From a virus: a stretch of DNA of 28,421 nucleotides. The notes under the pieces are model-generated. The model worked only from the letters and a program-made list of their open reading frames with translations. It had not been told where the DNA came from and made no database searches. How positions within the stretch are numbered: the stretch's first letter is position 1; every line of letters begins with the position of its first letter. A program made the translations under genes and the position numbers. Where the stretch lies: IMG/VR virus record IMGVR_UViG_3300032246_000582, positions 1 to 28,421 of that record. One strand, 5' to 3'. This document shows, piece by piece, positions 9,521 to 28,421 of the stretch.

Positions 9521-9549
9521 AGTATAGCACACCATCCATTTATTGTCAA
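9521..9549 (-). promoter_or_regulatory. Sigma70-like promoter TTGACA-N17-TATACT
   Basis: Minus strand -35 at 9549-9544 and -10 at 9526-9521, 17-base spacer beginning ATAAATGGATGG. The stop codon of the HNH gene (TGA, 9548-9546) is embedded in the -35 hexamer, as at 9154-9159. Confidence 0.88.
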
Positions 9550-10814
9550 TCTTTTTGCCGCTTGTTTTTCTCTCTAGTTTTGTAGTATTTTTTCATCCTT
9601 GCTTCTGTTTTTGCCAAGTCTTCTTTTTTACCCTTATTCCAAGTAATAATTTTACCTTCAGCAATACCGGCGTTACGTTTTTCTTTAATTTTTTGTTTGG
9701 CTTCTTCAGAATGTTTTGGTCTCGCTTTTAATGTACCTGCTAACTTTTTAGCTTCATAGTTAGCTTTGCGAGTTATTATGGCTCTTTCAATTTGCTCTTT
9801 GGGTTTGGGCACGCCTTTGTGGCAACTAACCCAACCGAGTTCATCCCTTTTGTTAATTCTAACTTTGGCTGTACCTTTGCGAGGATTCACCCAACCATTG
9901 GCAACCTTAACTGCCTTAGTAGCCTTTGATTTGGCAATGCCGTCCAACTTTCGTTGTAACTTTTCTTCTTCTGTATATACGTGTTTTTCTTTACCTGTTC
10001 CTTTATTCCACGCAACAATCTCACCTGTAGCAAATTTTGCTTTTCTTGTTTCTGATAGTTTCTTTTTGGCTTCATCACTATGTTTCCATCCATTAGCCAT
10101 TTTCGCATCAGCCGCTTTCCTGCCACTGGCTTTCCAATCTCTATTAAGCCATCTTTCACTAGTGGTTTTAATATCTTTCATCATTTGTTTATATATGGGA
10201 TCTTTCCAACGCTCGGTTAAACGCTTAGAATATTCTTCTTTTTTATTAGCAGTAAATGCTGAAGAAACTCTTTCTGATATTAATTTCTTATTTTTATCAG
10301 TATGTGTTTTTCCATACATCCCATTACCGGTGCCAGTTAACTTAGCCGATCGTATATCTTTAGTCCTTGCATTGGCATCTTTAATTTTTTGAATAGATTC
10401 AAGAGTATGCTTACTACCCTTAAAGTTTGGTCCGTGAATAGCAATGTGTTCTTTTATGGCCTTTACATATGCTATACGGCTAAGTTCATATATACGAGCG
10501 GGTATCAAATATGACCTATTTTGTTTAGGATTACCCGATCCATTAACCATTACATGTAATGCCATAGACATTTTGTTGTGCATTTTTGGACTCATTTTCA
10601 TTTTCCACAAAAGAAGATGTGCTATATAATGCTCTCTTGCATATAGGCGAACCACATTTTCTTTAAAGTCGGTGCCACCTAAACTTCTGGGAATTATGTG
10701 ATGATTCTCCCCGTACTCACCAATTGGAAAAACTCTTTGTTTAGCTTTCAATATTAATTGTTCATACCATAATCTGTACTTGCATTCTTTTACTTCATTG
10801 GGCCATACTATCAT
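9546..10814 (-). CDS. HNH homing endonuclease with NUMOD3-type repeats
   Basis: 422 aa from the ATG at 10814, which overlaps the preceding stop (TGATG). The nuclease domain is near the N-terminus: ENHHIIPRSLGGTDFKENVVRLYAREHYIAH (residues 37-66), a clear HNH ββα-metal motif. The rest is very basic and holds repeated short DNA-binding modules of the NUMOD3 kind (GKTHTDKNKKLISERVS, GWKHSDEAKKKLSETRKAKF, PKHSEEAKQKIKEKRNAG), separated by W-N/K-G blocks such as VAWNKGTGK and ITWNKGKKE. This is the layout of free-standing phage homing endonucleases. No intron boundary is evident. It sits in a run of co-directional genes as a likely selfish insertion. Confidence 0.9.
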   Translation of the reverse strand: MIVWPNEVKECKYRLWYEQLILKAKQRVFPIGEYGENHHIIPRSLGGTDFKENVVRLYAREHYIAHLLLWKMKMSPKMHNKMSMALHVMVNGSGNPKQNRSYLIPARIYELSRIAYVKAIKEHIAIHGPNFKGSKHTLESIQKIKDANARTKDIRSAKLTGTGNGMYGKTHTDKNKKLISERVSSAFTANKKEEYSKRLTERWKDPIYKQMMKDIKTTSERWLNRDWKASGRKAADAKMANGWKHSDEAKKKLSETRKAKFATGEIVAWNKGTGKEKHVYTEEEKLQRKLDGIAKSKATKAVKVANGWVNPRKGTAKVRINKRDELGWVSCHKGVPKPKEQIERAIITRKANYEAKKLAGTLKARPKHSEEAKQKIKEKRNAGIAEGKIITWNKGKKEDLAKTEARMKKYYKTREKNKRQKD

Positions 10815-11257
10815 CAACTAACCTCTGTTCTTCCATCACCTATATCCTTAGCACGTACCACTCTCATGTCCGTAGCCTGTGTTCGATTCTCTGGATCCGC
10901 TTGTTGCTGCTCATAAAGTTCCAGTGCTACATTACGGCATACAGTTTGAAACCAGCGATCCACGATAATAGTATCGGTGTCATCATCACGTATCTTATAA
11001 CCCGCACGAATCAAATTCAATACAAACTTGTCATTGAAATCAAGTTCAAATGCACCACTGTTAATATCATATGGGTCAATTTCCATCTTGAGTATATTAA
11101 CATAAGGTAGACCCAATTCTTCTGCCTTTTGTTTATCAGATACAGTAACAGGTTCCTTCTTTTCCTTAGGCTTGCGAGATTTCTTTTCCTTAACAGGTTT
11201 TGTTACCTCTACGATTGGTTCTGACTTTTTACCAAATAGTTTATCAAATAGTCCCAT
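10814..11257 (-). CDS. Conserved phage protein, MGLFDKLFGKK-type, 147 aa
   Basis: The chosen ATG at 11257 gives MGLFDKLFGKKSEPIVEV; it overlaps the end of the UvdE gene by 14 bases. A Lys/Glu/Pro-rich linker (about residues 12-37) precedes a domain with GLPYVNILKMEIDPYDINSGAFELDFNDKFV and IVDRWFQTVCRNVALELYEQQ. From memory, proteins with a similar start and a (V/D)xWFQxxCRNV block are common hypothetical proteins in T4-like cyanophages. The amphipathic GLFDKLFGKK start could associate with membranes. Function unknown. Confidence 0.75.
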   Translation of the reverse strand: MGLFDKLFGKKSEPIVEVTKPVKEKKSRKPKEKKEPVTVSDKQKAEELGLPYVNILKMEIDPYDINSGAFELDFNDKFVLNLIRAGYKIRDDDTDTIIVDRWFQTVCRNVALELYEQQQADPENRTQATDMRVVRAKDIGDGRTEVS

Positions 11258-12269
11258 GTTTATATCTTTCAAATAATTTAAAGCTGGCAAGATTCTTTGC
11301 CTTTGATTCACACATCATATCAAAGTTATCACAGAATGTCAATGCCCAATCATTCACCGCATCGTTCCAATAGTAATCACTATGTGCCCTGAGTTTTTGT
11401 TTGCTATGTCCTTCATTAATCAACGCACCATGATCGGGTAATCGTGTTGTGGAATGTTCTCCGAGTATATCTTCGCGGCTAACACTGTAATGCATAGTAG
11501 GGCGAACGCCACGCCAGCTATCAATAACCCGTTGTACAAGCGCATCATTAGGTTGAATGTATTGTCCTTCACGTATCCAATTATGGTGAATGTCCATGAC
11601 CGTAGGTACGAGGTCAGATAATGATAAGCAGTCAAGTAGTCCATGTGTGTATTCCTCATTCTCTAGTGTAAGTGTGTTACGGGCTTCTGTTGACAAACGA
11701 TTGTACACATCACGAATGCCCTGTGGACCTTTACGGCCACTGATGTGTACATTGATTTTGATATCCTGAAACTGTTTACCATAACCCATCATACGTGCCA
11801 TGTCAACATGATATTCAAATTCTTCTATACTCTTATTTACTACTTCTTCACGGTCACTTGCTAAAACTACAAATTGGTCAGGGTGAAAACTAAGACGAAC
11901 ATCATGTGCCCGTGCTGTTTCACCAATAGGTGCGAACCAATGTGCTAATTTGTTTTGAATGTCACTATCATGCCAGAAGTCTTTCCAGTCATCATGTGTA
12001 TAGAAACTGAGCATATCACTAGTAAGACGAACCATGCGTAGTTCGGGAGGTAATGTTGACACCTTCTTAACTAGATTGTGAGTATTTAGAATGTTGCGTT
12101 TTGCAACTTCAATTATCTTTTCCTCTGCTACTGCACGACTTTGACGATTAGCCCAAGCCATAGTAGTACCACCTGTGTTCAAACCCTCAACACTAGCGAT
12201 CTCACCTTTCTGATTAATCTCTGCCCATTTGCAAGCAAAGCCGATACGTTTGATAGATTGATTTGTCAA
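11244..12269 (-). CDS. uvdE: UV damage endonuclease, UvdE/UvsE family
   Basis: 341 aa. The start appears to be a TTG at 12269, since no in-frame ATG precedes the conserved RIGFACKWAE. Family landmarks follow in order: RMVRLTSDMLSFYTH, LSFHPDQFVVL (126-136), INVHISGRKG, LENEEY (202-207) and VMDIHHNW (224-231), which carry the metal-binding His, Glu and Asp of this TIM-barrel nuclease. UvdE nicks DNA 5' to UV photoproducts and starts alternative excision repair. A promoter lies directly upstream (12302-12330). A light-exposed habitat would make such a repair gene useful to a phage. The product is slightly longer than typical bacterial UvsE (about 300 aa). Confidence 0.9.
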   Translation of the reverse strand: MTNQSIKRIGFACKWAEINQKGEIASVEGLNTGGTTMAWANRQSRAVAEEKIIEVAKRNILNTHNLVKKVSTLPPELRMVRLTSDMLSFYTHDDWKDFWHDSDIQNKLAHWFAPIGETARAHDVRLSFHPDQFVVLASDREEVVNKSIEEFEYHVDMARMMGYGKQFQDIKINVHISGRKGPQGIRDVYNRLSTEARNTLTLENEEYTHGLLDCLSLSDLVPTVMDIHHNWIREGQYIQPNDALVQRVIDSWRGVRPTMHYSVSREDILGEHSTTRLPDHGALINEGHSKQKLRAHSDYYWNDAVNDWALTFCDNFDMMCESKAKNLASFKLFERYKHGTI

Positions 12270-12285: not shown

Positions 12286-12293
12286 GATAAATA
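12286..12293 (+). promoter_or_regulatory. Candidate late promoter box (GATAAATA)
   Basis: GATAAATA on the plus strand, 55 bases before the ATG at 12349, the same octamer as at 1210. It lies divergently next to the uvdE promoter. A late promoter would match the proposed role of the three downstream genes as packaged head proteins. Confidence 0.35.
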
Positions 12294-12348: not shown

Positions 12349-12906
12349 ATGAAAATTAATGAATTTATAACCGAGTCTAGCAAAATTTGCCCACAATGCG
12401 GCATGAAAGGCTGTACGTGTGAACCCGGTAAATGCAAATGCAAACCAAAACCAGGTTATCCAAAAAAGGTTAATGAGACTGCATCGGCGCATCCAAGACA
12501 AGCCGCTATCGCTATTGCCATGAAAGAAAAAGGGCAGAAGCCTAAGAATGAAGAAGAAGATTTAGATGAGGGCGAAACTTGGGCAAAGCACAACAACCCT
12601 CGTGCAGGTGGCATGAGTAAAAAGAGTGTAGCCAGTTATCGCCGTAGCCATCCTGGTAGCAAGATTCAAACAGCAGTAACAACTAAACCAAGCAAACTTA
12701 AAAAAGGTAGTAAGGCAGCAAAACGCCGTGCTAGCTTCTGTGCTAGAATGCGTGGAATGAAGAAACATCGTACCAGTGCTAAAACAGCACACAATCCAAA
12801 TAGCAATATAAATAAAAGTTTGCGTAGATGGCATTGCGAATCTATTGAAGAACTACATGAATTAGTAATGTTAGCTGAACAATACATTAGGAACAATAAG
12901 AAATGA
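12349..12906 (+). CDS. Basic Cys-rich protein with capsid-targeting-like N-terminus (DUF6321-type)
   Basis: 185 aa. The N-terminus MKINEFITE-SS resembles the T4 internal-protein capsid-targeting peptide (MKTYQEFIAE-A) and ends in a match to the gp21 prohead protease rule (Leu/Ile-x-Glu before Ala/Gly/Ser). Next is a Cys cluster, CPQCGMKGCTCEPGKCKC (Cys14, 17, 22, 24, 29, 31), possibly zinc binding. Then a very basic region follows (PSKLKKGSKAAKRRASFCAR, HNPNSNINKSLRRWHCES), a block I recall from marine T4-like phages (DUF6321-type). Overall charge suits binding packaged DNA. Coupled to the next gene by ATGA. Confidence 0.72.
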   Translation: MKINEFITESSKICPQCGMKGCTCEPGKCKCKPKPGYPKKVNETASAHPRQAAIAIAMKEKGQKPKNEEEDLDEGETWAKHNNPRAGGMSKKSVASYRRSHPGSKIQTAVTTKPSKLKKGSKAAKRRASFCARMRGMKKHRTSAKTAHNPNSNINKSLRRWHCESIEELHELVMLAEQYIRNNKK

Positions 12907-14741
12907 AATTTGTAGAATTATTAGAAGGCGCAGAGCCAAAGATGCCAGGAGCCCCTAGTGGCATAAAGATTATGACACCTCAGCAATTTGTTGCTAAAAG
13001 TGGTGACACGCCTGATGAAAAAGATGAAGAACTAAAAGAATTTGCTCCATACGATCACAACGATAGTGACGATGATTTTGATGGCGAGGAAGATGATGAA
13101 GAATTAAGAAGTTTATATGATACCAAAGCTGAATTAGAAGCAGAATTGGATTATGCTGAAGATGATGAAGAAAGAGAACAGCTAGAATCAGATTTAGAAG
13201 ATGTTCATGCTAGGATTCAACAAATAAAGCCAGATGCTATCCTTGAGCAAGGTGTGGCGGAAGGCTCGTTAAACGAATTTGCTCAGGGATCGGGCGGCGG
13301 CGAATCAGGACGATGGTACACAGACGATGAAATGACTGACATAGTAGGTGATGGCTGGTGGCAGGACATGGACGTCAGCGGTGCAAACATTGGCGTAATT
13401 GATTCAGAAGTGCCAAAAGAATACATGATACAAGAAGCACAGGCTTGGTTAGATGACCAGGGTTATAGTGTTCAAGTATTAAATTGTAAAGTAAATGATG
13501 ATGACATGGAATGGTATATCGAAGGCAGTTTTCAAAACTCCGGCTTTGCTAAAAAAGGCATGGCAGAGAGTCAAGTACACTTAGATAGAATTCGTAGTCT
13601 ATCTGGACTAGGTGAAGCAACTAAACTACCAGCACAAACTCGTGATTTGGGCGGTCAAGAGTTCCAAGACTATATGAATCGTATCGTTGGCACACCTGAC
13701 TTAGATAAAAGTGGTAATGTCAAAGTAGATAAAAAGGGCAATGAAAAGTATGTGTCTGGTAAAACAAAAACAGACAAGTATAAAATGCCTTACATACATC
13801 GTAGTAGTGTAGTTACTTACTTAAGCCCAGATGGTAAGACATATGATGAAGATGCGGTTAAACAAACATTAGCAGTTCGTCCAAAAGCATTACTAAAACA
13901 AAATGAAAAGATGAAGCATAGCAACGGGGAATTAGAACAGTTCTTTAACGTTGGCTTTGCAGCATTAGTGGGTATCGCATTAGACCAAGAGACAAACAAT
14001 CTGATTGTTGTTAACACATGCCCGGGCGCAGGTAGTTGTAAAGTAGATTGCTTTGCTATGAAAGGTGGTAAGATTCAATTCAAAGCTGCTTGGCAAAGTG
14101 ATGGGCGTATATTAACTTATCTATTGAATGACCCTGATGGTTTCTTCAATCAACTAAGTGGTGAAATAACTAAAGAAGCAGCACTAGGTAAGAAGGGTGG
14201 TTATACTGTAACTATTCGTTGGCATGACGCCGGTGACTTCTTTAGTCCAGAATACTTAGACATGGCACTAAAGATGGCAGCACAGCATCCAGATGTTAAG
14301 TTCTATGCTTACACTAAGATGGCTGGCGCAGCACTAGCTAAAAAACCAAGTAACTTCATTATTAATTGGAGTGAAGGTGCTCATACAAGCCAAGAGAAAC
14401 AGGTTAAGGCTAAAGATGCTAACTTAGATACAACTAAGAATAGTCGTATCGTTCCTGATGATATGTTCCAAGACTTACTAATCAAGGATGAAAAAGGTAA
14501 TCTAGTTAAAGGTGAAGCAGGACAATGGCAAGTACAACCTAACAAACTACCTGAATTGAAACAAAGATTGGCTAAAGAGTATGGTATTAGTGCTAACTCT
14601 ATATTGAGTTACGATGAGTACATGGCTAAACGCAAATCAATCCCAGCTGGTATGAAGTACAATGTTATCGTTGCGCCGGGTGAGGGTGATATCAGTGCTA
14701 ACGATCCTAACATTGTCTCAACATTATTGTTAAGACACTAA
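12903..14741 (+). CDS. Gp88-like domain protein with capsid-targeting-like N-terminus
   Basis: 612 aa. It begins MKFVELLE-GAE, again matching the prohead protease rule. Residues about 35-110 are very acidic and partly coiled-coil (DDEELRSLYDTKAELEAELD). Residues about 116-223 form an inserted module bounded by GVAEGS and GMAESQ. The C-terminal half is a Gp88-type domain: NTCPGAGSCKVDCFAMKGGK (Cys373, 379, 383), then TIRWHDAGDFFSPEYL (437-452), HPDVKFYAYTKM, and a final APGEGDISANDPNI. Proteins of this group have a clustered Cys motif that may bind a metal or Fe-S centre; their reaction is unknown to me. Starts with ATGA overlap. Probably a packaged enzyme. Confidence 0.7.
   Translation: MKFVELLEGAEPKMPGAPSGIKIMTPQQFVAKSGDTPDEKDEELKEFAPYDHNDSDDDFDGEEDDEELRSLYDTKAELEAELDYAEDDEEREQLESDLEDVHARIQQIKPDAILEQGVAEGSLNEFAQGSGGGESGRWYTDDEMTDIVGDGWWQDMDVSGANIGVIDSEVPKEYMIQEAQAWLDDQGYSVQVLNCKVNDDDMEWYIEGSFQNSGFAKKGMAESQVHLDRIRSLSGLGEATKLPAQTRDLGGQEFQDYMNRIVGTPDLDKSGNVKVDKKGNEKYVSGKTKTDKYKMPYIHRSSVVTYLSPDGKTYDEDAVKQTLAVRPKALLKQNEKMKHSNGELEQFFNVGFAALVGIALDQETNNLIVVNTCPGAGSCKVDCFAMKGGKIQFKAAWQSDGRILTYLLNDPDGFFNQLSGEITKEAALGKKGGYTVTIRWHDAGDFFSPEYLDMALKMAAQHPDVKFYAYTKMAGAALAKKPSNFIINWSEGAHTSQEKQVKAKDANLDTTKNSRIVPDDMFQDLLIKDEKGNLVKGEAGQWQVQPNKLPELKQRLAKEYGISANSILSYDEYMAKRKSIPAGMKYNVIVAPGEGDISANDPNIVSTLLLRH
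13248..13571 (+). other. In-frame, GC-richer inserted module bounded by GVAE-G and GMAE-S sites
   Basis: This part of the 612-aa gene is visibly richer in G and C (about half) than the AT-rich coding sequence on both sides. It encodes QGVAEGSLNEFAQGSGGG, a globular-looking stretch (DDEMTDIVGDGWWQDMDVSG to MEWYIEGSF) and KKGMAES. Both borders have a Glu followed by a small residue after hydrophobic-x, similar to the capsid-targeting cleavage sites. From memory, GVAEGSLNE-like segments recur in unrelated aquatic phage proteins. Confidence 0.5.
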
Positions 14742-14742
14742 A

Positions 14743-15351
14743 ATGCGAGCAAATGAATTTGTAACTGAAAGTTTATTTGGGTTAGGAAGACAATCACCTA
14801 GGTTGAATCAAACTTTTTTAGATGCTTTTCATGCATGGCAATCAAACAGCAGTAACTTAAAAGAAGTTGAACAAGCGGCAACAGTGATTCTCAATGATCC
14901 TGCGTCAAAACCTTATCAGACTCCTCCGAGCAATATCAAAGAAATCTATCGCACCATTGGCGATATCAACAAAACACAAACAGCAAGAAATCGTGTGGCT
15001 GTTGCGTATGCTACAAACCTAGCAGGTGCTGAATATTATTTTAGAATTCAAAGTAAAAATAACAAAGATTTTCATGTTGTGAAGAAGCAATTTAATCCAC
15101 AGGACTTCTTGTTGGACTTTGCGGCTTTATGTAAGGGATTGGGTCTTACTAACGCACAATATCAAAAAGAAAACGAAATATGGATGCGTCCAACTCAATA
15201 CTATGCTTCTTACAATGCTGATGAACTAGTTGACCGTCGTAGTTGGATTCAGAAAATTTCTGGCAGAACACAACATCCAACAGTGCAGGCTAAAAATGTG
15301 GCTGTACAAAAACAAGCCGCACAAAATAAAGAACTAGACGATTTACTATAA
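14743..15351 (+). CDS. Putative packaged protein with capsid-targeting-like N-terminus, 202 aa
   Basis: Starts MRANEFVTE-SLFGLG, the third consecutive gene with an EF-x-x-E opening and a small residue after Glu. The rest is soluble and mixed alpha/beta (NLKEVEQAATVILNDPASKP, YYFRIQSKNNKDFHVVKKQF, FLLDFAALCKGLGLTNAQYQ) and ends in a Gln/Ala/Lys-rich helix. No catalytic motif or family was recognised. It begins one base after the previous stop and completes the plus-strand block. A role inside the virion is inferred only from the N-terminus and neighbours. Confidence 0.65.
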   Translation: MRANEFVTESLFGLGRQSPRLNQTFLDAFHAWQSNSSNLKEVEQAATVILNDPASKPYQTPPSNIKEIYRTIGDINKTQTARNRVAVAYATNLAGAEYYFRIQSKNNKDFHVVKKQFNPQDFLLDFAALCKGLGLTNAQYQKENEIWMRPTQYYASYNADELVDRRSWIQKISGRTQHPTVQAKNVAVQKQAAQNKELDDLL

Positions 15352-15366: not shown

Positions 15367-16191
15367 CTACACCTTAAGTAGTTCTTCTAAAGTGTATAAC
15401 TCTTTCATATAGGGTGACACATTATCTAATACAGATACTGCTAAGTCACCCTTTCTTCTTGGACCATATTTTACGTCAAAGTCAACATTGTTAACCTTCT
15501 TGTATAGATTAACAATGTCCCTAACTGATGTACCCACACCGTGTCCTAAACATTCTATCTGATTACTAGGCTTTTCAATAGCACTACGCAATGCGTCACA
15601 TATCTCATTAACATGAACATAATCACGCACACAGGTTCCATCACTTGAACCATAATCTGTACCAAAGATAGTAAACTCTCCTGTCTCTTTAGTTTTCAAT
15701 AGATTATACATTAGTCCATCTGGATTCGTTGGAGCGAATCCGTCACTACCAATCACGTTGTAGAATCTGAAAGTTGTATAGGGTGTAGGCTTATGAGTAG
15801 TATAATACTCACGTACAACATCTTCCGCAGCACGTTTACTGATGCCATATGCGCTTTCACAATCTTGTGCAGCTCCTGTGCTAGCAAAGATAAAGTTCTT
15901 TGTCTTTACCTTATTAATAACATTCATTGTGCCATTTAAGTTAGTAATGTAATAGCTTAGTGGGATCTTTTCACTTTCACCTACATTGACTAGTGCAGCT
16001 AAATGAATCACACAATCAAAATCAGTTGGCAATTCAAATAGTTTGCGAATGTCAATCTGATAGAATTCACGTAGCCCATCTGCTTGTGGTACATTGATAT
16101 CTAGCCCATATACTTCATAATCGTTAGATAGCATCTTAATTAGATGACTACCAATATAACCTGAACAACCTGTTATTAATATTTTTTTCAT
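15367..16191 (-). CDS. NAD-dependent sugar epimerase, GalE-like (extended SDR)
   Basis: 274 aa, shorter than E. coli GalE (338). The nucleotide-binding motif is ITGCSGYIGSHL (Gly8, 11, 14). The catalytic Tyr115 and Lys119 lie in AYGISK, with Ser104-Thr105 upstream. The substrate region has FRFYNVIGSDG and DGTCVRDYVHVNEICDA, which closely match UDP-glucose 4-epimerases. The C-terminus RRKGDLAVSVLDNV is also typical. Its ATG overlaps the stop of the glycosyltransferase gene (TAATG), so the two are probably co-translated and the epimerase may supply that enzyme's nucleotide sugar. No clear terminator separates it from the convergent gene ending at 15351. Confidence 0.85.
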   Translation of the reverse strand: MKKILITGCSGYIGSHLIKMLSNDYEVYGLDINVPQADGLREFYQIDIRKLFELPTDFDCVIHLAALVNVGESEKIPLSYYITNLNGTMNVINKVKTKNFIFASTGAAQDCESAYGISKRAAEDVVREYYTTHKPTPYTTFRFYNVIGSDGFAPTNPDGLMYNLLKTKETGEFTIFGTDYGSSDGTCVRDYVHVNEICDALRSAIEKPSNQIECLGHGVGTSVRDIVNLYKKVNNVDFDVKYGPRRKGDLAVSVLDNVSPYMKELYTLEELLKV

Positions 16192-17966: not shown

Positions 17967-18061
17967 TATTCTCTATCCACTCTAGCATCTATATTGGAAC
18001 GATAGCACATGTATAATACACCTACTATATATCCAAGCAAACATCCCCAAAAGAAATCCAT
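17966..18061 (-). CDS. Membrane micropeptide, 31 aa
   Basis: MDFFWGCLLGYIVGVLYMCY followed by RSNIDARVDRE: one transmembrane helix with a charged C-terminal tail. The ATG overlaps the queE stop (TGATG) and the TAA overlaps the next ATG (TAATG), so it occupies exactly the space between two genes with one-base overlaps at each end. That arrangement strongly suggests a translated gene. Function unknown; the positive-inside pattern would place the tail in the cytoplasm. Confidence 0.65.
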   Translation of the reverse strand: MDFFWGCLLGYIVGVLYMCYRSNIDARVDRE

Positions 18062-18903
18062 CAAGTGCCCCACTCGTTTTTGAATAACGGCACTTGTAAT
18101 CTATCACTATAACGCCAGCCTAAGCGCATTGCTTCATTGGCGACATTTCTAGCATTCAATGTATAAAGTTTCTCAACACCACCGCATGGCATCAAATATA
18201 CATGACCTCTGAAGCCACGCTTACGATATTCATCTACTGCTTGTTGTGCTTCTAGTACATCTTCTTTTGTCGCTACAACAAACTTAAGATATACATGACC
18301 TACTTGACTATATTCATATACAATATCAGGACGTATTGCTTCACTCCATTTTTCACCACTGATACTGAGTTTAGGACTAACACTAAATGTGATTGCACCC
18401 TTAGAACGATTAATGGCCCACTGATGCAAAAATATTTTCAATTCTTGATGTAATGATTGTGTACCGTTAGTTTCAAATGTTAGTTCTTGCAATCCACGCA
18501 TATTATCATGTGAAAGCAGTTCTGGATAACTACGTTGCCAGCCTAATAACGGCTCACCGCCCGTAATAACAAGGTGCTCATCCATCCAACGATTGTTAGG
18601 AAGTATAGACATAATGCTACTAACAATAGTATCGGTACTGAGCATAGGACTAAGATGTTTGAAATTAGGGTCCCAACTTGCATAACTATCACATCCAGTA
18701 CTGACAAGTGGTAAGGATTTGTAATCCGTATAAGTTTCTGCTTTAATGAGATTTCGTTCTTCACTTAACTGTCCTTTAGGCATGCCGAAGCCACCGCATG
18801 TGAAATTACATCCGTAAGTTCTTAAAAAGACTGAGGGTACACCCATGTATCTGCCCTCTCCCTGAATACTATAAAATAATTCACTAATTTTTAAATTTGA
18901 CAT
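18061..18903 (-). CDS. queE: QueE-type radical SAM enzyme, 7-carboxy-7-deazaguanine synthase
   Basis: 280 aa from the ATG at 18903, which has AGGA in range and lies one base after the queD stop. QueE converts 6-carboxytetrahydropterin to 7-carboxy-7-deazaguanine (CDG). Visible landmarks: ISELFYSIQGEGRYMGVPSVFLRTYGC at the start, the radical-SAM GGEP motif in VITGGEPLLGWQ, FETNGTQ, and ISFSVSPKLS-like TFSVSPKLS. The Cys motif is unusual: Cys32 and Cys36 in GCNFTCGGFG, but the expected third Cys of CX3CX2C is Phe; Cys71 in STGCDSYASWDP may replace it. It is followed by the membrane micropeptide and glycosyltransferase genes in one overlapping operon. Confidence 0.88.
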   Translation of the reverse strand: MSNLKISELFYSIQGEGRYMGVPSVFLRTYGCNFTCGGFGMPKGQLSEERNLIKAETYTDYKSLPLVSTGCDSYASWDPNFKHLSPMLSTDTIVSSIMSILPNNRWMDEHLVITGGEPLLGWQRSYPELLSHDNMRGLQELTFETNGTQSLHQELKIFLHQWAINRSKGAITFSVSPKLSISGEKWSEAIRPDIVYEYSQVGHVYLKFVVATKEDVLEAQQAVDEYRKRGFRGHVYLMPCGGVEKLYTLNARNVANEAMRLGWRYSDRLQVPLFKNEWGT

Positions 18904-18904
18904 G

Positions 18905-19387
18905 TTAATCCTGAAACTCGTTATCTTCTCTATGTCCTTGTCGTCCTGCCATATTGCTATCAGTCTCACGTACCTCTACCTTGCAGCACCAGACCCGAGC
19001 AGCTTCTTCACTGCCGCAGTTTGGCAAGAAGATTGTGTTAATGTATTCATATAAGAAATCAGCAAGTCCTTCACACCCAGTACGTTCTACTTCTGTTATC
19101 TTTGCTAGTTTAAGTCTACCCAATTCAAGTAAGTGTTCACGCATTGGGTCATCTTGTGCGACTAGTAATGTATGATCGAACCAATCTTCTAGTAAGCCTT
19201 TAAGTGGCTTTAGTCCACCAAAGTCAGTTACCCAGTTACGGGCATCTAATGTATCTGCTTCAAATTCAAAATGAAACGACATTGCGTAACCATGAATTAA
19301 GTTACAATGACTATCTGCACGCCATTGACGATAAGCGACTGGACCTATCTGCTTGTACGTTTTTGTACTAAAATATTTCTTTGCCAT
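18905..19387 (-). CDS. queD: QueD-like 6-carboxy-tetrahydropterin synthase (PTPS/T-fold)
   Basis: 160 aa. QueD turns dihydroneopterin triphosphate into 6-carboxytetrahydropterin. Recognisable parts: SHCNLIHGYAMSFHFEFEA with the candidate catalytic Cys28, NWVTDFGGLKPLK, WFDHTLLV with His72, TGCEGLADFLYEYI with the substrate-anchoring Glu106, and KVEVRETDSNMAGRQ with Glu141. The usual zinc His triad is altered: the HGH is HGY (His32, Tyr34), and no AAH precedes it (AYRQWRADSH instead). His27 or His39 could compensate. A TTTACA-N17-TATAAT promoter is directly upstream. Forms the queD-queE pair with one-base spacing. Confidence 0.87.
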   Translation of the reverse strand: MAKKYFSTKTYKQIGPVAYRQWRADSHCNLIHGYAMSFHFEFEADTLDARNWVTDFGGLKPLKGLLEDWFDHTLLVAQDDPMREHLLELGRLKLAKITEVERTGCEGLADFLYEYINTIFLPNCGSEEAARVWCCKVEVRETDSNMAGRQGHREDNEFQD

Positions 19388-19404
19388 GATATTCTCCTAT
19401 GTTA

Positions 19405-19433
19405 ATTATAGCATAGGCAGCAGAATTTGTAAA
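19405..19433 (-). promoter_or_regulatory. Sigma70-like promoter TTTACA-N17-TATAAT
   Basis: Minus strand -35 at 19433-19428, 17-base spacer, perfect -10 at 19410-19405, reading into queD. The leader holds TAGGAGAATATC just before the ATG, a strong ribosome-binding site. This gives queD-queE and the downstream glycan genes their own transcription start. Confidence 0.88.
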
Positions 19434-19459
19434 GCGGGATGACGCCGAGACCGCTACTA

Positions 19460-20254
19460 TTATTTACCTAAATTCATTTCTTTTCGTATATTAGTAGCAC
19501 TTATTTGTGTAATACTTTCATCAAAAGTTTCTTCTCCTAACGTGTAACCTACACCGCGGCCCCATCCAATGTGAACAATATTGGGTACAACTTGTATTTC
19601 ATATTGCCCTTGATACAATGGGTCTAAGTCTCGACGGATATATTTCTTAACTTCTTCTATGGCAAAAGGATTACTATCTTGCCAACCTTGCACATCACGT
19701 ACTTGAATAATCACTTGCCCGGTCTTTGCTAATAGTCGTTCAAACAATGCACGATGACCATCATGCCATGGTTGCCAGCGACCTAGCATCTGTACTGTTT
19801 CTTTCTTCCAATCAAACACAGGTCTACGACGGTTCATTTTCAAATGAAACCCAATAAACTCAGCCCATTTTTCTGCATTCTGCTCGTTAACACGGAAGTC
19901 ATATGTTTCTGGTTCAATGAAGGCTTTGTTGGTATCAGCATAGCGACCTTCACGAATAGTATCTACCCAAATAGTCCAATCTGCACTGTAGTTCTCACGC
20001 ATTTCAACTAGTGGTGCAACAAAGTCAGCAATCACATATTCAGTTTCTACTTTGGTAGATAATTCATACATACGCTTGCTTTGGCGAATGCGACCTTCAG
20101 TACTAAAGTCCCAATCATCATATTTTTTTCGTATTTCATCGGCATTTAACCAAGTTACTGACATAAAGTTATTATTCATAAACTCTATTAAGTTTTGTGC
20201 CAATGTGGTTTTACCTGCTCCAGGCAGGCCCATAATTAGTATTCGTTTTACCAT
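19460..20254 (-). CDS. Fusion of CysC-like P-loop kinase and nucleotidyltransferase
   Basis: 264 aa in two domains. Residues 1-about 130: Walker A GLPGAGKTT (9-17), NADEIRKKYDDWDFSTEGRIRQ and WVDTIREGRYADTNKAFIEP, a pattern close to adenylylsulfate kinases. Residues about 150-264: GRWQPWHDGH (158-167), the HxGH motif of nucleotidyltransferases, and ISATNIRKEM (251-260), the ISxTxIR motif, as in NadM-type enzymes. The domain order is opposite to NadR (NMN adenylyltransferase then kinase) but the same as in PAPS synthetases. The start overlaps the end of the sulfotransferase-like gene by seven bases. Substrate unknown; nucleotide-activated sulfate, sugar or NAD precursor are all options. Confidence 0.75.
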   Translation of the reverse strand: MVKRILIMGLPGAGKTTLAQNLIEFMNNNFMSVTWLNADEIRKKYDDWDFSTEGRIRQSKRMYELSTKVETEYVIADFVAPLVEMRENYSADWTIWVDTIREGRYADTNKAFIEPETYDFRVNEQNAEKWAEFIGFHLKMNRRRPVFDWKKETVQMLGRWQPWHDGHRALFERLLAKTGQVIIQVRDVQGWQDSNPFAIEEVKKYIRRDLDPLYQGQYEIQVVPNIVHIGWGRGVGYTLGEETFDESITQISATNIRKEMNLGK

Positions 20255-20847
20255 ATATAATTCTCCAACCAGTTTTCAATAATATTTATTAATTCGTTGT
20301 AATTCTTAGGTTTTGGCGTAATAACAGCAGTACCCAAATCATATACGTAATCTTCATAGTTTACAACCTTATCAAAAATTACAGTGAGTTCTTCTAACTC
20401 GGTGTAATTTTTATGCATCCTTTTTAAACATCCTGCTAATCGAATCTTTTCTATTTTAATAATTTCATCAGCATACATGTCTAAATTCAACCGATCGTAT
20501 GTGTAAGTTTTTCTTATCTCGGCTAAATACACACTAGCTAATTGTGCTACTTTATCTTGCCGAACAATTTTAATATTATATGTTTCACGATTGTTGATTT
20601 TATCTAATAAAAATTTAGGATAGTTAATTAAATCCGCTGCATGAAATTTTATGACATATTCATTGGTAGATTGAATTAATTTTGAAAATTTATCAAACTC
20701 TGTTTTGTCTGGCGAATATGTTACATCATTATAACCAAGTATATTTAAATCGTTAGTTAGTTGCCTACAAATTACACTTGACCCGGATCTTGGTGGACCA
20801 ATGACCACTACTGGTAATTTTTTAACTTCATCTTTATTTACTATCAT
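20248..20847 (-). CDS. Small sulfotransferase-like P-loop protein
   Basis: 199 aa. The N-terminus VVVIGPPRSGSSVICRQL (residues 13-30) matches the 5'-phosphosulfate-binding loop of PAPS sulfotransferases (G-x-x-R-S-G-S/T). VRQDKVAQLASVYLAEI (95-111) matches the 3'-phosphate-binding motif, with Arg96 and Ser105, as in Stf0-like enzymes. It is shorter than most sulfotransferases (about 250-300 aa). It overlaps the genes on both sides. Next to a kinase-nucleotidyltransferase that resembles PAPS-making enzymes, a sulfation step is a testable idea. It could also be a nucleotide kinase-like P-loop protein. Confidence 0.6.
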   Translation of the reverse strand: MIVNKDEVKKLPVVVIGPPRSGSSVICRQLTNDLNILGYNDVTYSPDKTEFDKFSKLIQSTNEYVIKFHAADLINYPKFLLDKINNRETYNIKIVRQDKVAQLASVYLAEIRKTYTYDRLNLDMYADEIIKIEKIRLAGCLKRMHKNYTELEELTVIFDKVVNYEDYVYDLGTAVITPKPKNYNELINIIENWLENYIW

Positions 20848-21304
20848 TTTTTATATGTTCTGCTTCTGCTACCCGTTTGCGTAGACTGCTGCTACTAAAA
20901 CTGTGGTCACGACTATTGAATACTAATTCAATCTTACGCTTCTCACAGATTGCACGACCAGTAAAGTCTTTCTCCATGTACTCAACCCCTAGTATACGCA
21001 CATCTACGGGCAATGTCAATAAGATATCTTCCAAATCTTTTTCAGTATTATAAACAACGATTTCATCTACAAAACGTACAGCACTTAAACTGATTTGGCG
21101 TTCAACTATGCTTTGAATAGGTGCATTCTTTTCGGATCTATCCCATTGTGCGTTATTTTGTAATCCGGCAATGAGATAATCGCAATGATTCTTAGCTTCA
21201 CTAAGCATTGCGATATGTCCTGCATGTAATATATCAAATTGCGAGAATACAATACCAATCTTGAGACCCTGTAGTTTTAGTTCTTTGATTCTATTGAATA
21301 TCAT
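20834..21304 (-). CDS. Cytidylyltransferase-like nucleotidyltransferase
   Basis: 156 aa from the ATG at 21304, which overlaps the previous stop as ATGA; an upstream GTG at 21322 is less likely. The HxGH motif is clear in GIVFSQFDILHAGHIAMLSEAK (His27, His30), followed by ERQISLSAVRFVDEIVVY and the late SFSSSSLRKRV, equivalent to the ISTTxLR-type motif. This is the TagD/RfaE-C/PCYT group that joins CTP (or ATP) to phosphorylated alcohols or sugars. It lies between folE and the sulfotransferase-like gene. Its substrate may be made or used by the neighbouring kinase-nucleotidyltransferase. Confidence 0.8.
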   Translation of the reverse strand: MIFNRIKELKLQGLKIGIVFSQFDILHAGHIAMLSEAKNHCDYLIAGLQNNAQWDRSEKNAPIQSIVERQISLSAVRFVDEIVVYNTEKDLEDILLTLPVDVRILGVEYMEKDFTGRAICEKRKIELVFNSRDHSFSSSSLRKRVAEAEHIKNDSK

Positions 21305-21537
21305 TTTTTCAATACTCTCCACATCTTTGTTTTAGAATGTTCATTTAAGAATTCTTGTTCATCAGCATAAGTAGGAGCATCTGCTATGATTTCATCTAAT
21401 AACCATTTGATACGATGTAAATCTTGTTTAATCCCCCAAGTAGTGAATCCGTCATTATGATGAGAATGTAGTTCTACACCGGCCATATAAATTTGATGAT
21501 GAACACTATTGTAATCCATTGGTTTATGAAATCCCAT
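21301..21537 (-). CDS. Hypothetical His-rich protein, 78 aa
   Basis: Begins MGFHKPMDYNSVHHQIYMAG with six His in the first 27 residues (VHHQ, LHSHHND), possibly a metal site. A helical part follows (IKQDLHRIKWLLDEIIADAPTY, EQEFLNEHSKTKMWRVLKK). The start uses AGGAAAT contributed by the end of folE. No family recognised. Overlaps the next gene as ATGA. Confidence 0.65.
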   Translation of the reverse strand: MGFHKPMDYNSVHHQIYMAGVELHSHHNDGFTTWGIKQDLHRIKWLLDEIIADAPTYADEQEFLNEHSKTKMWRVLKK

Positions 21538-21539
21538 TA

Positions 21540-22211
21540 TTATTTCCTAGCTAATTGATAGAATTCTGCTCTTGCTGCTGGATCAGACTTAAATCCACCA
21601 CCTAGTTTACTTGTGACAGTGCTAGAACCAGTATCTTCCACACCGCGACTTTTTACACAATAATGTTGTGCGTCAATCATAACCGCAACATCTTCTGTTT
21701 CAAGGATATATTGCAATGCATGAAATACTTGTTCTGTCAATCGTTCTTGTATCTGTGGACGCTTACTAAAGTATTCTACAATACGATTGATTTTACTCAA
21801 TCCAAGAACCTTTTTATTGGGAACATATGCGACAGTAGCAAGACCATCAATCACTACAAAGTGATGTTCACAGTTACTTTGTACATTGATATTGCGTTCG
21901 CACACCATTTCATTGTATTTCATTTTGTTATCAACTGCTGTACATTTAGGGAATGCTTCATAATCAAGTCCCCAAAAGATTTCATTGACATACATTTTTG
22001 CTACACGCTTGGGTGTTTCCATTAAGCTATCATCATCTAAATCTAGACCTAAAACTTGCATGATATGACTGAAACTTTTTTCGATTTCTGCAATTTTGTC
22101 TTTACGATCCAATGATGTTTGGAATGTAGGAGTTTCAACTCCCACTTTAACCAAATGTTCGTGTACTTTTTGACCCAACTCTGGGTCTGTTTTTGTTTTA
22201 TTATAACTCAT
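21540..22211 (-). CDS. folE: GTP cyclohydrolase I
   Basis: 223 aa, standard length. Zinc and active-site residues are present: Cys114, His116 and His117 in QSNCEHHFV, and His183 and Cys185 in AQHYCVKSRGV. Other family blocks are METPKRVAKMYVNEIFWGL, GLSKINRIVEYFSKRPQIQERLT and TGSSTVTSKLGG. FolE opens GTP to dihydroneopterin triphosphate, the first step towards folate and 7-deazaguanines. With queD, queE and the DpdA-like gene nearby, the second route is the likely one here. The leader carries AAAGGAAGG before the ATG and an 11-bp stem-loop further upstream. Confidence 0.95.
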   Translation of the reverse strand: MSYNKTKTDPELGQKVHEHLVKVGVETPTFQTSLDRKDKIAEIEKSFSHIMQVLGLDLDDDSLMETPKRVAKMYVNEIFWGLDYEAFPKCTAVDNKMKYNEMVCERNINVQSNCEHHFVVIDGLATVAYVPNKKVLGLSKINRIVEYFSKRPQIQERLTEQVFHALQYILETEDVAVMIDAQHYCVKSRGVEDTGSSTVTSKLGGGFKSDPAARAEFYQLARK

Positions 22212-22246
22212 AGATAACCTTCCTTTGTGATGGTTTGTGTTTTGAA

Positions 22247-22274
22247 ATGTAAGCTACCGTTGTGTAGCTTACAT
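22247..22274 (-). other. 11-bp perfect stem-loop in the folE leader
   Basis: ATGTAAGCTAC (22247-22257) and GTAGCTTACAT (22264-22274) pair perfectly around a 6-base loop. On the minus strand no U-run follows, so it is not a standard terminator. A GATAAATA box (minus strand 22285-22278) lies just upstream. It may stabilise or process the folE mRNA, weakly terminate the preceding gene, or bind a regulator. Confidence 0.7.
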
Positions 22275-22290
22275 ATTTATTTATCACAGA

Positions 22291-22479
22291 TTAAGCCTTA
22301 GCTTCTTTTCTTGCTAATTTTTCAGCGGTAATTTCGTTACGGCGAGCCTTAACTGCTTTAGCAAGTTCACCCAATGCTTTGCGGGCACGTGTACCTGCTG
22401 CTGCATTGCCTTTGTTAAACTTGTCATTTTCAGCAGTGTATGCTGCCAATTGTGTTTCAATATCATTATGTGCGTTCAT
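22291..22479 (-). CDS. Small Hc1-like basic protein, 62 aa
   Basis: Starts MNAHNDIETQLAAYTAENDK and continues FNKGNAAAGTRARKALGELA, ending in Lys/Ala/Arg-rich helix (KAVKARRNEITAEKLARKEA). The KGNxAAGxRARKAL block is the signature of histone H1-like Hc1 family segments. It is basic, helical and probably binds nucleic acid or the nucleoid. The ATG overlaps the previous stop (ATGA). The call rests on one motif. Confidence 0.6.
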   Translation of the reverse strand: MNAHNDIETQLAAYTAENDKFNKGNAAAGTRARKALGELAKAVKARRNEITAEKLARKEAKA

Positions 22480-22742
22480 TTTTCGTTTTCCTTTGTAATA
22501 CGATTCTTTTTTCTATCCAGGTCATATTTTACTATTTCCTGTACTAATGTTGACTCATAATCCCATGTCATGGGATGATAAGTTCTAGGCTTGTTAACAT
22601 TATCCAGTGCGTCTTGAACGTCACTTTTTAATGCTTCATCATCCCATTCTATTGCCGTGCTACCGTCACCATAAGTATAAACAGTACAATGACTACCCTT
22701 AACAGTTTCAGTAGCCCACCAACATTTGCGATAATCTGTCAT
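22476..22742 (-). CDS. Hypothetical acidic protein, 88 aa
   Basis: Starts MTDYRKCWWATETVKGSHCT and contains VYTYGDGSTAIEWDDEALKS and TYHPMTWDYESTLVQEIV, ending with a charged tail DLDRKKNRITKENEK. No family recognised. One base separates it from the upstream glycosyltransferase stop. Coupled to the Hc1-like gene by ATGA. Confidence 0.65.
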   Translation of the reverse strand: MTDYRKCWWATETVKGSHCTVYTYGDGSTAIEWDDEALKSDVQDALDNVNKPRTYHPMTWDYESTLVQEIVKYDLDRKKNRITKENEK

Positions 22743-22743
22743 T

Positions 22744-23931
22744 TTAATATTTACTTTCTCTAGTATGTTTACGATAGTCTACGCCCATGCGTAACATAGA
22801 TTCGCCCTTGCCTTCAAGTATATCACAGATTCTATCAACTGTGCTATCGTTACGGTCACTTATCTTTCCCATGTTTTTATGAGGCTCTTGAAGTAGCCGG
22901 CGCAACTTACCAATAGCATTATCAATAGACCAAGGGATATACAAACGGTCAGGATCGTTAGCGAAAGTTTCAGGAAAACTACGATATGCAGGATACAACA
23001 CATTGCAGCCAAGAGCATCTGCTTCGCTGACCGTATTCGAAACCCAATCTTGTAAAGCGCAATTGAACACAACACGAGATTCATTAACAATATTGTAATA
23101 ATCATTCTTTTCTAAATCCTCATAGATGGTAAGTTTGCCTGCTGCTTGTAGATCACGGGTGCGTTGCATGTAACTTTCGCTATTGGATTTCAATTTGCCA
23201 CCACTACATACACAGAACTCAATACTATTTATAGGATGATTTGGATATTCTTTGTTGTACCATTGTTCAATGAGATCCATATAGAAGTCGGGTTGTTTCT
23301 CCTGATCCCAACGTGCAGAGAATACTACACGATTCTTTCGTTCATTAAATGGCTTGATACTTGCGACACGACCTTGTACTTCACTCTTGCCAAATGCTAA
23401 CCCACTGATATTGTAGATTGGGGCACGCCAACCTGCAATCTTCATGTGCATTACCATTTCTTCATTAGTAGCAAGTATGCCATCTACGAACGAGTCAACC
23501 ATCTTTTCATAATGCCCCATAAACTCTGACATGCCCCAAACATGTACAAAATCATCAGGATCAATAGACTGGGCAAGACAACGAACAAAAATCCTAGGAC
23601 GGAGAGTATCAGGGATTTGATTGAGTATATAAGGTAGGCTTTCGATACCGGGCTGAAACATGTCCTCAAAGTAGATAACATCTTCATTGTTTAATTCTCC
23701 TTGTTTCATCATACGAATTAGATTCATCAGTTGACTCATACCGTAGTATGTACGACCATGAGCATCTAATACTTGACCAGTTACAATAGCTTGATCATTA
23801 CTTAGTGTTTCTCCGGGTACTACAACATAGTTGATGCCTCTACGATCAAACACAGTAGTATTCCACTCTTGTAACTGTAGAGTATACCTTGCTTTATAGG
23901 GTTCAAGACCCATGTAATACAGTTTACGCAT
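22744..23931 (-). CDS. Glycosyltransferase-like protein (GT-B type)
   Basis: 395 aa from the ATG at 23931, which overlaps the previous stop (TAATG) and gives MRKLYYMGLEPYKARYTLQL; an ATG at 23955 is an alternative. The N-terminal domain has a Rossmann-like build. The C-terminal domain has RKNRVVFSARWDQEKQPDFYMDLIEQW, YEDLEKNDYYNIVNESRVVF and VSNTVSEADALGCNVLYPAYRSFPE, matching the donor-binding half of GT4-like glycosyltransferases with the Glu in SEADALG. It is placed between folE and the T-fold/DpdA genes, so base glycosylation is one option, though nothing in the sequence fixes the acceptor. Confidence 0.72.
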   Translation of the reverse strand: MRKLYYMGLEPYKARYTLQLQEWNTTVFDRRGINYVVVPGETLSNDQAIVTGQVLDAHGRTYYGMSQLMNLIRMMKQGELNNEDVIYFEDMFQPGIESLPYILNQIPDTLRPRIFVRCLAQSIDPDDFVHVWGMSEFMGHYEKMVDSFVDGILATNEEMVMHMKIAGWRAPIYNISGLAFGKSEVQGRVASIKPFNERKNRVVFSARWDQEKQPDFYMDLIEQWYNKEYPNHPINSIEFCVCSGGKLKSNSESYMQRTRDLQAAGKLTIYEDLEKNDYYNIVNESRVVFNCALQDWVSNTVSEADALGCNVLYPAYRSFPETFANDPDRLYIPWSIDNAIGKLRRLLQEPHKNMGKISDRNDSTVDRICDILEGKGESMLRMGVDYRKHTRESKY

Positions 23932-24137
23932 TATGGACGAGCGTTTTCCTGCCATTGATCTTTAGCAAACTTGCCTGTAGCAAATTTAGTATACTGACGA
24001 TATACATAACTCCGTTGATCATAGAGTTCTGCTTCATTGTACTTATAACCGTAATCCACACAGAATGTTAGATATTTCTCTAGGTCCTCAAAGATTTGAG
24101 TAACACGTGGGTTAGATTGAAAAGTTTGTTTTGCCAT
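23931..24137 (-). CDS. Hypothetical protein, 68 aa
   Basis: Starts MAKQTFQSNPRVTQIFEDLE after a good AAAGGAAATATAAA site. Tyr-rich (YLTFCVDYGYKYNEAELYDQRSYVYRQY) with a basic end (KFATGKFAKDQWQENARP). No family recognised. Its stop overlaps the glycosyltransferase start by one base. Confidence 0.65.
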   Translation of the reverse strand: MAKQTFQSNPRVTQIFEDLEKYLTFCVDYGYKYNEAELYDQRSYVYRQYTKFATGKFAKDQWQENARP

Positions 24138-24149
24138 TTTATATTTCCT

Positions 24150-24602
24150 TTAAATAGCGAGGTTACGATAAGGTTGAGTTCTATTATAAGAAATCGTAGC
24201 ACCATTCTCATTGTCCTCAGAGATAGTGATTTTGATATTACGATCTGGATACCGAGTTGAGATAACCTCATAAAGATTATCACTAATCATTTCACAACTT
24301 TTGTAATCCAATGCAAGAATGTTTTGAGAATATTGATTCTCTAACCATCTTTTGAATTGAATAAACTCAATATCTCTATCATTGTGAAACACTTCAATCG
24401 TCACTTCAAAGTGAAAGATGTGACGATGTGGAGTTGCTAGAAAGCTAACATCATACTCATCACCTGTTGCCAAGTTAGGGTCTGTTGCTGCTGCGGGGTA
24501 TTTATGAATACCCTCTTTTTGAAATCGTACAAAGATTGTACGAAATGCTTTATCTTTAATGCGTTGACGCTTTTCCATATCAGCTTGTTCTTGTTGATTC
24601 AT
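24150..24602 (-). CDS. Putative T-fold (PTPS/QueD-like) protein
   Basis: 150 aa. The block PHRHIFHFEVTIEVFHNDRD followed by IEFIQFKRWLENQY, then LDYKSCEMISDNLYEVI and ITISEDNENGATISY follows the order of PTPS/QueD T-fold enzymes: H-x-H (His59, His61), then the D/E-F-x-x-F/L-K strand, then a Glu in a C-E/T-A-E motif (Glu104), and a late Glu (Glu129). His33 could be the third zinc ligand. The catalytic Cys just before HxH is absent, and no DH pair is seen. It may be a divergent pterin or deazapurine enzyme. It lies two genes downstream of the DpdA-like gene. Fold call is moderate; activity is open. Confidence 0.5.
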   Translation of the reverse strand: MNQQEQADMEKRQRIKDKAFRTIFVRFQKEGIHKYPAAATDPNLATGDEYDVSFLATPHRHIFHFEVTIEVFHNDRDIEFIQFKRWLENQYSQNILALDYKSCEMISDNLYEVISTRYPDRNIKITISEDNENGATISYNRTQPYRNLAI

Positions 24603-24811
24603 TATCTATCATCCTCAAAGTTAACACGTTCGTGATCTTCTTCCCACTGAAGTTTTGTATATCTTCTTATCTCAGAGTATACATCATTTCTATCTATCAG
24701 CATAGCTTTAAGGGCGTCTACATTAAAGTTACTATCCTTTTCTGCCTTCAATATTTCTTTGTCAAGGTCTATAGCCCGTTGTTGTAGTTTAGCAATTCGT
24801 TGTCTATACAT
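24602..24811 (-). CDS. Hypothetical coiled-coil protein, 69 aa
   Basis: Starts MYRQRIAKLQQRAIDLDKEI; nearly all of the protein is charged heptad-like helix (KAEKDSNFNVDALKAMLIDR, DVYSEIRRYTKLQWEEDHER). Begins four bases after the stop of the DpdA-like gene and ends with TAATG into the T-fold gene. Probably a small partner or assembly protein; no family recognised. Confidence 0.65.
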   Translation of the reverse strand: MYRQRIAKLQQRAIDLDKEILKAEKDSNFNVDALKAMLIDRNDVYSEIRRYTKLQWEEDHERVNFEDDR

Positions 24812-24815
24812 ATTA

Positions 24816-27527: not shown

Positions 27528-28421
27528 TTAACCGAATGTGAATAGTTCATCAAATGTTGAGTTAACATCTGTGTTACTTCTGATATCCCAATCCAATACG
27601 CCAAGTAAGTTGTCTATCTTCTCATCTACCAATGTTGATTCCATTAGTAAATCATCGAATGGTAGTTCTTTGAACCATACTGGTAATCGCAATTCATCAA
27701 CTGGGTATGCAATACTAGTAAAACCCAATGCGTTGTCTTTGAGTTTACAAACAACAATCTTCATACCATCTATAATCTTTTGACTATAGTTGTCCCCATA
27801 TACTCTACGTAGATAGTTCCAGTTAATTGCTGCACGGGCATGACCAACACCGCACTTACCTGTCTTTTCAAATTCAATTGTATGCTTAGTTAAGTTATTG
27901 ACACTCTTTGGGCTACCCTTTGTCCAGCTATCTTGTTCAGACAGTTTAGTTTTGAATTCTTTAACCATTTCAATAACTTTATCACGCTGCTCACCAGCAA
28001 GGACCTTAGTAAGTACATCCATCAAGAATTCTTGAATGTATTTAGGAGTATCAGCACGTTTCAAGTCAAGACCCATCGCTTTGATATCGCCCATCTTACC
28101 GTTCACATCTTTACGCTTACCTTCTTTATCAAAGATATTGATAGCATAGCGTTTCTTTGTGATAAAGATAGCACGATCACCAATCAATTCACGACCAGCT
28201 TTAATGATTGCGCCATTCTTTCTTGGAGCATGAAAAGCACGTTCCATGAATGCAGGGAAACTTTCGTTAGCTTGGTCAGCGATACTATCATACAACCCAA
28301 TGCAAGTTTCTTTGTTCCACTCTAGTTCTCCATTCTGTATTTGCGAATTGAGAATAGGATATGCAGTAAAGTAACAACTGTCAGTATCACCATACACAAT
28401 AGCATTGCCATCGTGTGCATA
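27528..28421 (-). CDS. 43: Family B DNA polymerase, C-terminal part (5' end outside window)
   Basis: The frame is open to the window edge and reads YAHDGNAIVYGDTDSCYF, the polymerase motif C with the two catalytic Asp, so the exonuclease domain and most of the palm lie beyond the window. Later, GAIIKAGRELIGDRAIFITKKRYAINIFDKEG contains the KKRY motif of family B polymerases. The end, ELFTFG, resembles the C-terminal clamp-binding tail of T4-type gp43. Upstream of the sliding clamp gene in the same orientation. Confidence 0.92.
   Translation of the reverse strand, partial: YAHDGNAIVYGDTDSCYFTAYPILNSQIQNGELEWNKETCIGLYDSIADQANESFPAFMERAFHAPRKNGAIIKAGRELIGDRAIFITKKRYAINIFDKEGKRKDVNGKMGDIKAMGLDLKRADTPKYIQEFLMDVLTKVLAGEQRDKVIEMVKEFKTKLSEQDSWTKGSPKSVNNLTKHTIEFEKTGKCGVGHARAAINWNYLRRVYGDNYSQKIIDGMKIVVCKLKDNALGFTSIAYPVDELRLPVWFKELPFDDLLMESTLVDEKIDNLLGVLDWDIRSNTDVNSTFDELFTFG

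Follow-up and report, generated by a model that had tools for sequence, protein, structure and literature searches.

Do the three consecutive proteins encoded by a short plus-strand island in IMG/VR record IMGVR_UViG_3300032246_000582 represent cargo packaged in a phage head, and how might such cargo be put together and processed? The outcome of early conflict with bacterial immunity can hinge on phage proteins that are packaged and injected; outside T4, such cargo is hard to recognise because it has no shared fold. The window analysed here is the whole record (28,421 bases, with no further contigs), and relatives were used for genome-wide tests. Its source is a T4-like freshwater phage, with a DNA polymerase fragment (27528-28397) that matches phage family-B polymerase families. 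Head genes, gp21 included, are absent from the fragment, and the minus strand carries nearly every gene beyond 6.6 kb. The island consists of ORF1 (12349-12906), ORF2 (12903-14741), and ORF3 (14743-15351), all on the plus strand, with start and stop codons that overlap or sit 1 nt apart, and is flanked by minus-strand genes at 11244-12269 and 15367-16191. Coordinates, strand, and N-termini of the three ORFs were found as quoted in a first-pass annotation of this DNA, which had proposed a module of packaged proteins.

ORF1 encodes a tagged protein of 185 aa that is basic and Cys-rich, as previously described (pI 10.0, 8 Cys), and carries a C-terminal DUF6321 domain (aa 85-161; 12601..12831, plus strand; PF19846, E 5.5e-11, 43.4 bits, above the gathering score of 28.5); its predicted structure model was too poor for use. 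The acidic ORF2 protein, also tagged, is modular and 612 aa long, and the Gp88-like domain suspected in it corresponds to Pfam GP88 (PF17338; 92.3 bits, E 5.3e-26, above the gathering score of 24.4). ORF3 (202 aa) matched no Pfam family, and its relatives number none in phage genomes and a single, close one in IMG/VR (L082), the tag being the sole basis of its assignment. A search against defence families gave no more than a weak match to ORF3 (E 0.007).

The tags read MKINEFITE in ORF1 (12349..12375, plus strand), MKFVELLE in ORF2 (12903..12926, plus strand), and MRANEFVTE in ORF3 (14743..14769, plus strand), with predicted cuts after Glu9 (I-T-E|S), Glu8 (L-L-E|G), and Glu9 (V-T-E|S), respectively. 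IMG/VR searches returned 482 relatives of ORF2 and 101 of ORF1, and 80 of each were kept. Nearly all ORF1 relatives start M-[KR]-x-x-E-[FIL]-[ILV]-x-E, and nearly all ORF2 relatives M-[NK]-[FI]-K-E-L-x-E-G, with L6, E8, and G9 of the ORF2 tag nearly invariant. In five relatives of 303-367 kb, with genes called by a simple ORF method, the strict tag M[KR]xx[EDQ][FIL][ILVM]xE occurs at 35 of 2139 gene starts vs. 1 of 7957 internal Met residues. The T4-like appearance of the N-termini, the starting point of the first-pass annotation, thus exceeds chance, and the search it proposed for other genes with this N-terminus, run on the relatives, yielded those 35. Adjacent pairs of tagged genes, counted with a looser pattern, number 12, compared to 0.98 in shuffles. 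The carriers of the strict tag are mutually unrelated (amidoligase, GH19 chitinase or lysozyme with LysM, GNAT acetyltransferase, NT5C nucleotidase, and ART-PolyVal), which marks the tag as an N-terminal signal that is portable between non-homologous proteins and used across the genome. The 217 distinct tagged ORF starts in the retrieved loci fall into 141 different 9-mers, in which synonymous codons vary freely, indicating that the tag is conserved as protein.

At P3, the 217 starts have I (142), L (50), or V (25). The L/I-x-E motif fits the ORF1 and ORF2 tags exactly, and ORF3 has V. The residue following the tag Glu is A (50), S (32), D (20), G (15), V (13), N (12), T (12), R (11), E (10), L (10), or another; hence, the rule previously put forward, Leu/Ile-x-Glu followed by a small residue, describes the three tags (with V in the third), but its small-residue restriction does not extend across the family. 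Several tagged proteins deserve mention. One that starts MRAKEFIYE (L253:2847-3653) joins GNAT and ART-PolyVal domains in a single chain and is likely a packaged effector. In cyanophage S-SKS1 (L417:2760-3068), the product of a gene flanked by DUF6321 and gp17 begins MKNFKQFLSE|S, a signal of 10 residues, as in T4. Many ORF1 relatives have a short basic repeat, AANPAQQAAIAIAMKKAGKKPK, after the tag (e.g., L046:4477-4899), which is possibly DNA-binding.

A protease that could act on such tags is encoded in the relatives: a gp21-type Peptidase_S77 protein and gp23, ~2 kb apart, are present in 8/8 relatives over 230 kb. Alignment of gp22 and gp23 from five of these eight, with gp22 named by position and length, revealed an invariant LLAE|SSAGTT at the expected maturation site of gp23, while the gp22 scaffold keeps LVAEG, FV[AT]ES, and QLAES. 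The conservation of these sites implies that the specificity in this group is [LV]-x-E before a small residue, which fits the tags I-T-E|S, L-L-E|G, and V-T-E|S; the predicted [LIV]-x-E tag sites match the conserved gp22 and gp23 sites. In T4, gp21 recognises L/I-x-E and cleaves behind its Glu, and head targeting takes no more than the N-terminal 10 residues of IPIII (PMC9026906).

Expression timing was approached through the promoter box GATAAATA, located at 12286..12293 on the plus strand, -63 from the ORF1 ATG. In the five relatives, 143/222 copies of this box are found no more than 90 nt ahead of a gene, a space that makes up ~5% of the sequence, and it is found upstream of 45/65 ORF1 relatives, nearly all at -61 to -64, suggesting that GATAAATA is likely the late box of the group. 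The NATAAATA box precedes tagged genes in 9/49 cases vs. 293/2075, and the T4 late box TATAAATA, tried as a mark of tagged genes, is not enriched. The late-type box reported earlier for the island is therefore borne out for ORF1 but is not a general feature of tagged genes. In four annotated cyanophage records, the DUF6321 gene is close to the terminase large-subunit gene, in agreement with a late, head-related role. The variable residue after Glu and the restricted occurrence of the late box would also suit a tag that serves something besides head targeting, e.g., binding of another virion component or a chaperone, its likeness to the T4 signal being convergent. Such a role is very improbable, given that the core E-F-I-x-E equals that of the T4 signal, that gp21 and gp23 are present in the relatives, that the predicted site agrees with those of gp22 and gp23, and that the tagged proteins include a class predicted as injected (ART-PolyVal).

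Beyond the tag, two of the three proteins, ORF1 and ORF2, belong to modular polyprotein families with junction sites and junction DNA, a feature that the first-pass annotation had missed. The modular picture was drawn from the relatives, which are mosaics of 40-210-aa modules and vary widely in length because the part between the tag and the C-terminal domain is a string of short modules; the architecture is clear in the relatives, yet most modules have no Pfam family. With the caveat, common to all counts over relatives given here, that related sequences are not independent, [LVIM]-x-E lies directly before the DUF6321 unit in 25/25 ORF1 relatives and [LVIM]-x-E|A directly before the GP88 part in 31/32 ORF2 relatives, the upstream sequence differing in both families. 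In the shortest ORF1 relatives, the cut site of the tag itself abuts the domain, e.g., MRVDEIINE|DWQK (L030). Candidate sites in ORF1 are V-N-E43|T at the end of the Cys-rich module (12469..12477, plus strand), with upstream sequence that differs among relatives, and L-D-E74|G directly before the DUF6321 unit (12562..12570, plus strand). In ORF2, an acidic helical module (aa 62-115; 13086..13247, plus strand) has a homologous stretch inside an ORF1-family protein of locus L004 (61% identity), the counterpart within that ORF1-type protein extending over ORF2 aa 23-117. This module is followed by the junction element CAAGGTGTGGCGGAAGGC, which encodes QGVAEG with a candidate cut after Glu120 (13248..13265, plus strand), by a candidate site, M-A-E222|S, that separates the second module from the GP88 part (13560..13571, plus strand), and by the candidate L-G-E238|A directly before the conserved, folded GP88 part (13608..13616, plus strand). 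The latter part (aa 239-612, with Pfam GP88 at aa 331-502; 13617..14738, plus strand) has no [LIV]-x-E-[GAS] site in ORF2, and its fold gave no significant PDB match, just weak TIM-barrel-like ones. GP88 proteins of four phages from outside the group (two cyanophages, a Streptomyces phage, and a Mycobacterium phage) are ~240 aa long and have neither tag nor extension.

The distribution of the motif bears on whether the internal sites would be used. Among 32 ORF2 relatives, [LIV]-x-E-[GAS] sites number 81 in the variable part (shuffles, 18.7) and 9 in the GP88 part (shuffles, 26.4). In the AlphaFold model of ORF2, Glu8, Glu120, Glu222, and Glu238 lie between folded modules at pLDDT below 50; a further motif match, Glu178, falls within a predicted helix, suggesting that not every motif is a cut site. 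Cutting might instead be confined to the tag, with the internal [LIVM]-x-E linkers acting as flexible spacers between modules joined in one polyvalent protein that is head-targeted as in T4. This is unlikely, since hydrophobic-x-Glu is kept with a varying x before both conserved domains and coincides with the tag site in minimal forms, the motif is over-represented in the variable region and under-represented in the folded one, and V-A-E-G/S is found in scaffold gp22 as well. Consistent with tag-only cutting are the predicted disorder of the GVAEG linker, the loss of mainly N-terminal propeptides by virion-resident T4 head proteins (PMC9026906), and the description of polyvalent proteins as delivered multidomain chains (PMC5512222).

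Many linkers in ORF1 and ORF2 relatives read QGVAEG, resembling V-A-E-G of gp22, and are written in a conserved DNA sequence, AAGGTGTGGCGGARG, which is frame-locked and uses the rare codons GTG and GCG. In these relatives, the junction codons GGT, GTG, and GCG have frequencies of 1.00, 0.93, and 0.95 vs. background values of 0.58, 0.11, and 0.07, respectively. The gp22 genes write VAEG with GTT followed by GCA or GCT, and the junction codons are thus not explained by amino acid selection alone. The core GGTGTGGCGGA was found in 130 copies in 4.38 Mb of loci, with 0.38 expected; all 114 open-frame copies are in the GVAE frame, and 16 have no open 300-nt frame. Conservation ends near -3 and +13, the flanks beyond being unconserved. 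In a wider pass over more loci, 53/370 copies were near ORF or contig ends. The element is carried in 1-8 copies by 22/25 large contigs, with no occurrence of the reversed control pattern; eight of the 25 had been found through the junction element itself. An IMG/VR scan retrieved at least 120 stretches with the element; the 28-kb record has one copy. The tag is absent from some junction-bearing ORFs (strict pattern, 33/143; loose pattern, 77/143), and many of the untagged ones have a different short N-terminal segment that ends in [LI]-x-E. A bacterial origin of the junction was considered and rejected: 26 exact 18-mer matches in 257 Gb of bacterial genomes were scattered among unrelated taxa, near chance level, and four of them, when translated, were unlike the phage proteins. 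Among cultured or named phages with DUF6321 or GP88, 0/7 records have the junction at one mismatch, and a literature search found no mention of the GVAEG linker or DUF6321.

Homology between the mosaics frequently ends at the junctions. When BLAST matches with an identity of 95% or less were compared among 143 junction-bearing ORFs, 360/1882 of their internal ends were at the junction in both proteins, compared to ~12 at random placement; the count is somewhat inflated, as BLAST ends are drawn to a shared element, and the baseline ignores relatedness. In 17 matches, both ends coincide with junctions. In nucleotide comparisons, homology that extends in the 3′ direction ends for the most part at +10 to +16 of the element (152/707 ends), and homology that extends in the 5′ direction ends mostly at -6 to -1 (219/859 ends). 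Some of the exchanged modules beside junctions are >90% identical, as might be found if the DNA conservation merely reflected recent copying of modules with their ends and had no function at the DNA level. Others have fallen to 42-80% identity, yet the junctions adjoining them are nearly fixed at synonymous sites, and flanks outside -3..+13 are not conserved; recent copying as the whole explanation is therefore rather doubtful. For exchange at the junction itself, a site-specific recombinase was examined as the motor and rejected, with PF00589 (tyrosine) and PF00239 (serine) present in 0/8 large relatives, which favours modules probably exchanging by homologous recombination through the shared junction sequence. 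In relative G003, a GIY-YIG-like homing enzyme follows gp23, and the 28-kb record has an HNH homing endonuclease lookalike at 9546-10817; in principle, such enzymes could act on the junction sequence.

The first-pass reading of the island as cargo that is loaded, cleaved, and injected is partly supported. We consider it fairly probable that late, tagged polyproteins are packed in the prohead, cut by a gp21 homologue, and delivered with the DNA, their modules being exchanged at the junction. The tag would be a capsid targeting sequence of 8-9 residues, the counterpart of the T4 internal-protein signal, placed on late proteins and guiding these to the scaffold within the prohead; there, the gp21-type S77 protease would cut after Glu in [LIVM]-x-E. 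The same protease would be expected to cut again at the linkers of ORF1 and ORF2, so that ORF1 would give a Cys-rich and a DUF6321 piece, and ORF2 a helical, an alpha/beta, and a GP88 piece, each as a separate small protein. These pieces would remain in the filled head, exit with the DNA, and act in the new host. The linkers would double as exchange points, the 15-18 nt of the junction in the GVAE frame allowing modules to be added, lost, or swapped in frame, with each exchanged junction retaining its protease site. Held more tentatively, with slightly less than even confidence, is the proposal that in a large freshwater T4-like group this in-frame DNA is at once a module-exchange site and, in translation, the prohead-protease site at which every module is released within the capsid, with injected effectors added or swapped as single cassettes.

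Short repeated DNA at module borders has a precedent in T4-type phages, where mobile regulatory cassettes known as PeSLs are thought to drive modular shuffling. PeSLs are intergenic promoter/stem-loop units, whereas the junction described here is intragenic, in frame, and encodes a protease-type site. Like the signal of T4 IPI-III, the tag is a short N-terminal element with an E-F-I-x-E core on otherwise unrelated proteins, and, as for the T4 internal proteins, a predicted L/I-x-E cut is combined with diverse accessory cargo, with a gp21-type protease and gp22/gp23 in the relatives. In contrast to T4 (PMC9026906), the tag has 9 or 8 residues rather than 10 and accepts V and M at P3, and the proteins are modular mosaics with internal sites at module junctions and a shared DNA junction. 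The multidomain, injected-effector logic would be that of polyvalent proteins, in line with the ART-PolyVal domain of a tagged relative; T4's packaged Alt is likewise an ADP-ribosyltransferase (PMC5512222). Processing of polyvalent proteins is, however, ascribed to in-protein peptidase domains or is absent (PMC5512222), unlike the prohead-protease-type sites and common DNA junction found here. Ejection proteins of PhiKZ and SPN3US are also packaged and cut after Glu by a gp21 homologue, with several sites per propeptide, but their motif is S/A-x-E or A-x-E, their propeptides are mostly long, and the available parts of PMC5694885 and PMC9026906 describe no shared module junctions.

Cleavage at the junctions would make the capsid of these phages a site of polyprotein processing, and in a protein cut site that is fixed as DNA as well, protease specificity and module exchange would come together in an unusual way. 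Since tag and junction mark cargo by sequence alone, the likely cargo of hundreds of uncultured phages could be listed. Elsewhere in the window, the gene immediately ahead of the island, on the opposite strand (11244-12269), encodes a UvdE-type UV endonuclease (PF03851, E 2e-37), and a plus-strand gene near the left end (362-1207) encodes a papain-family cysteine protease (PF00112, E 2.9e-17). The minus-strand region 18061-26357 contains what we take, by motif recognition, to be a 7-deazaguanine gene set, with presumed QueE (18061-18969), QueD (18905-19387), and FolE (21540-22211), as well as a protein with DSGGFQ (24816-26357), which matched no Pfam or PHROG family and is presumably TGT-like; this gene set suggests that the phage DNA is modified.
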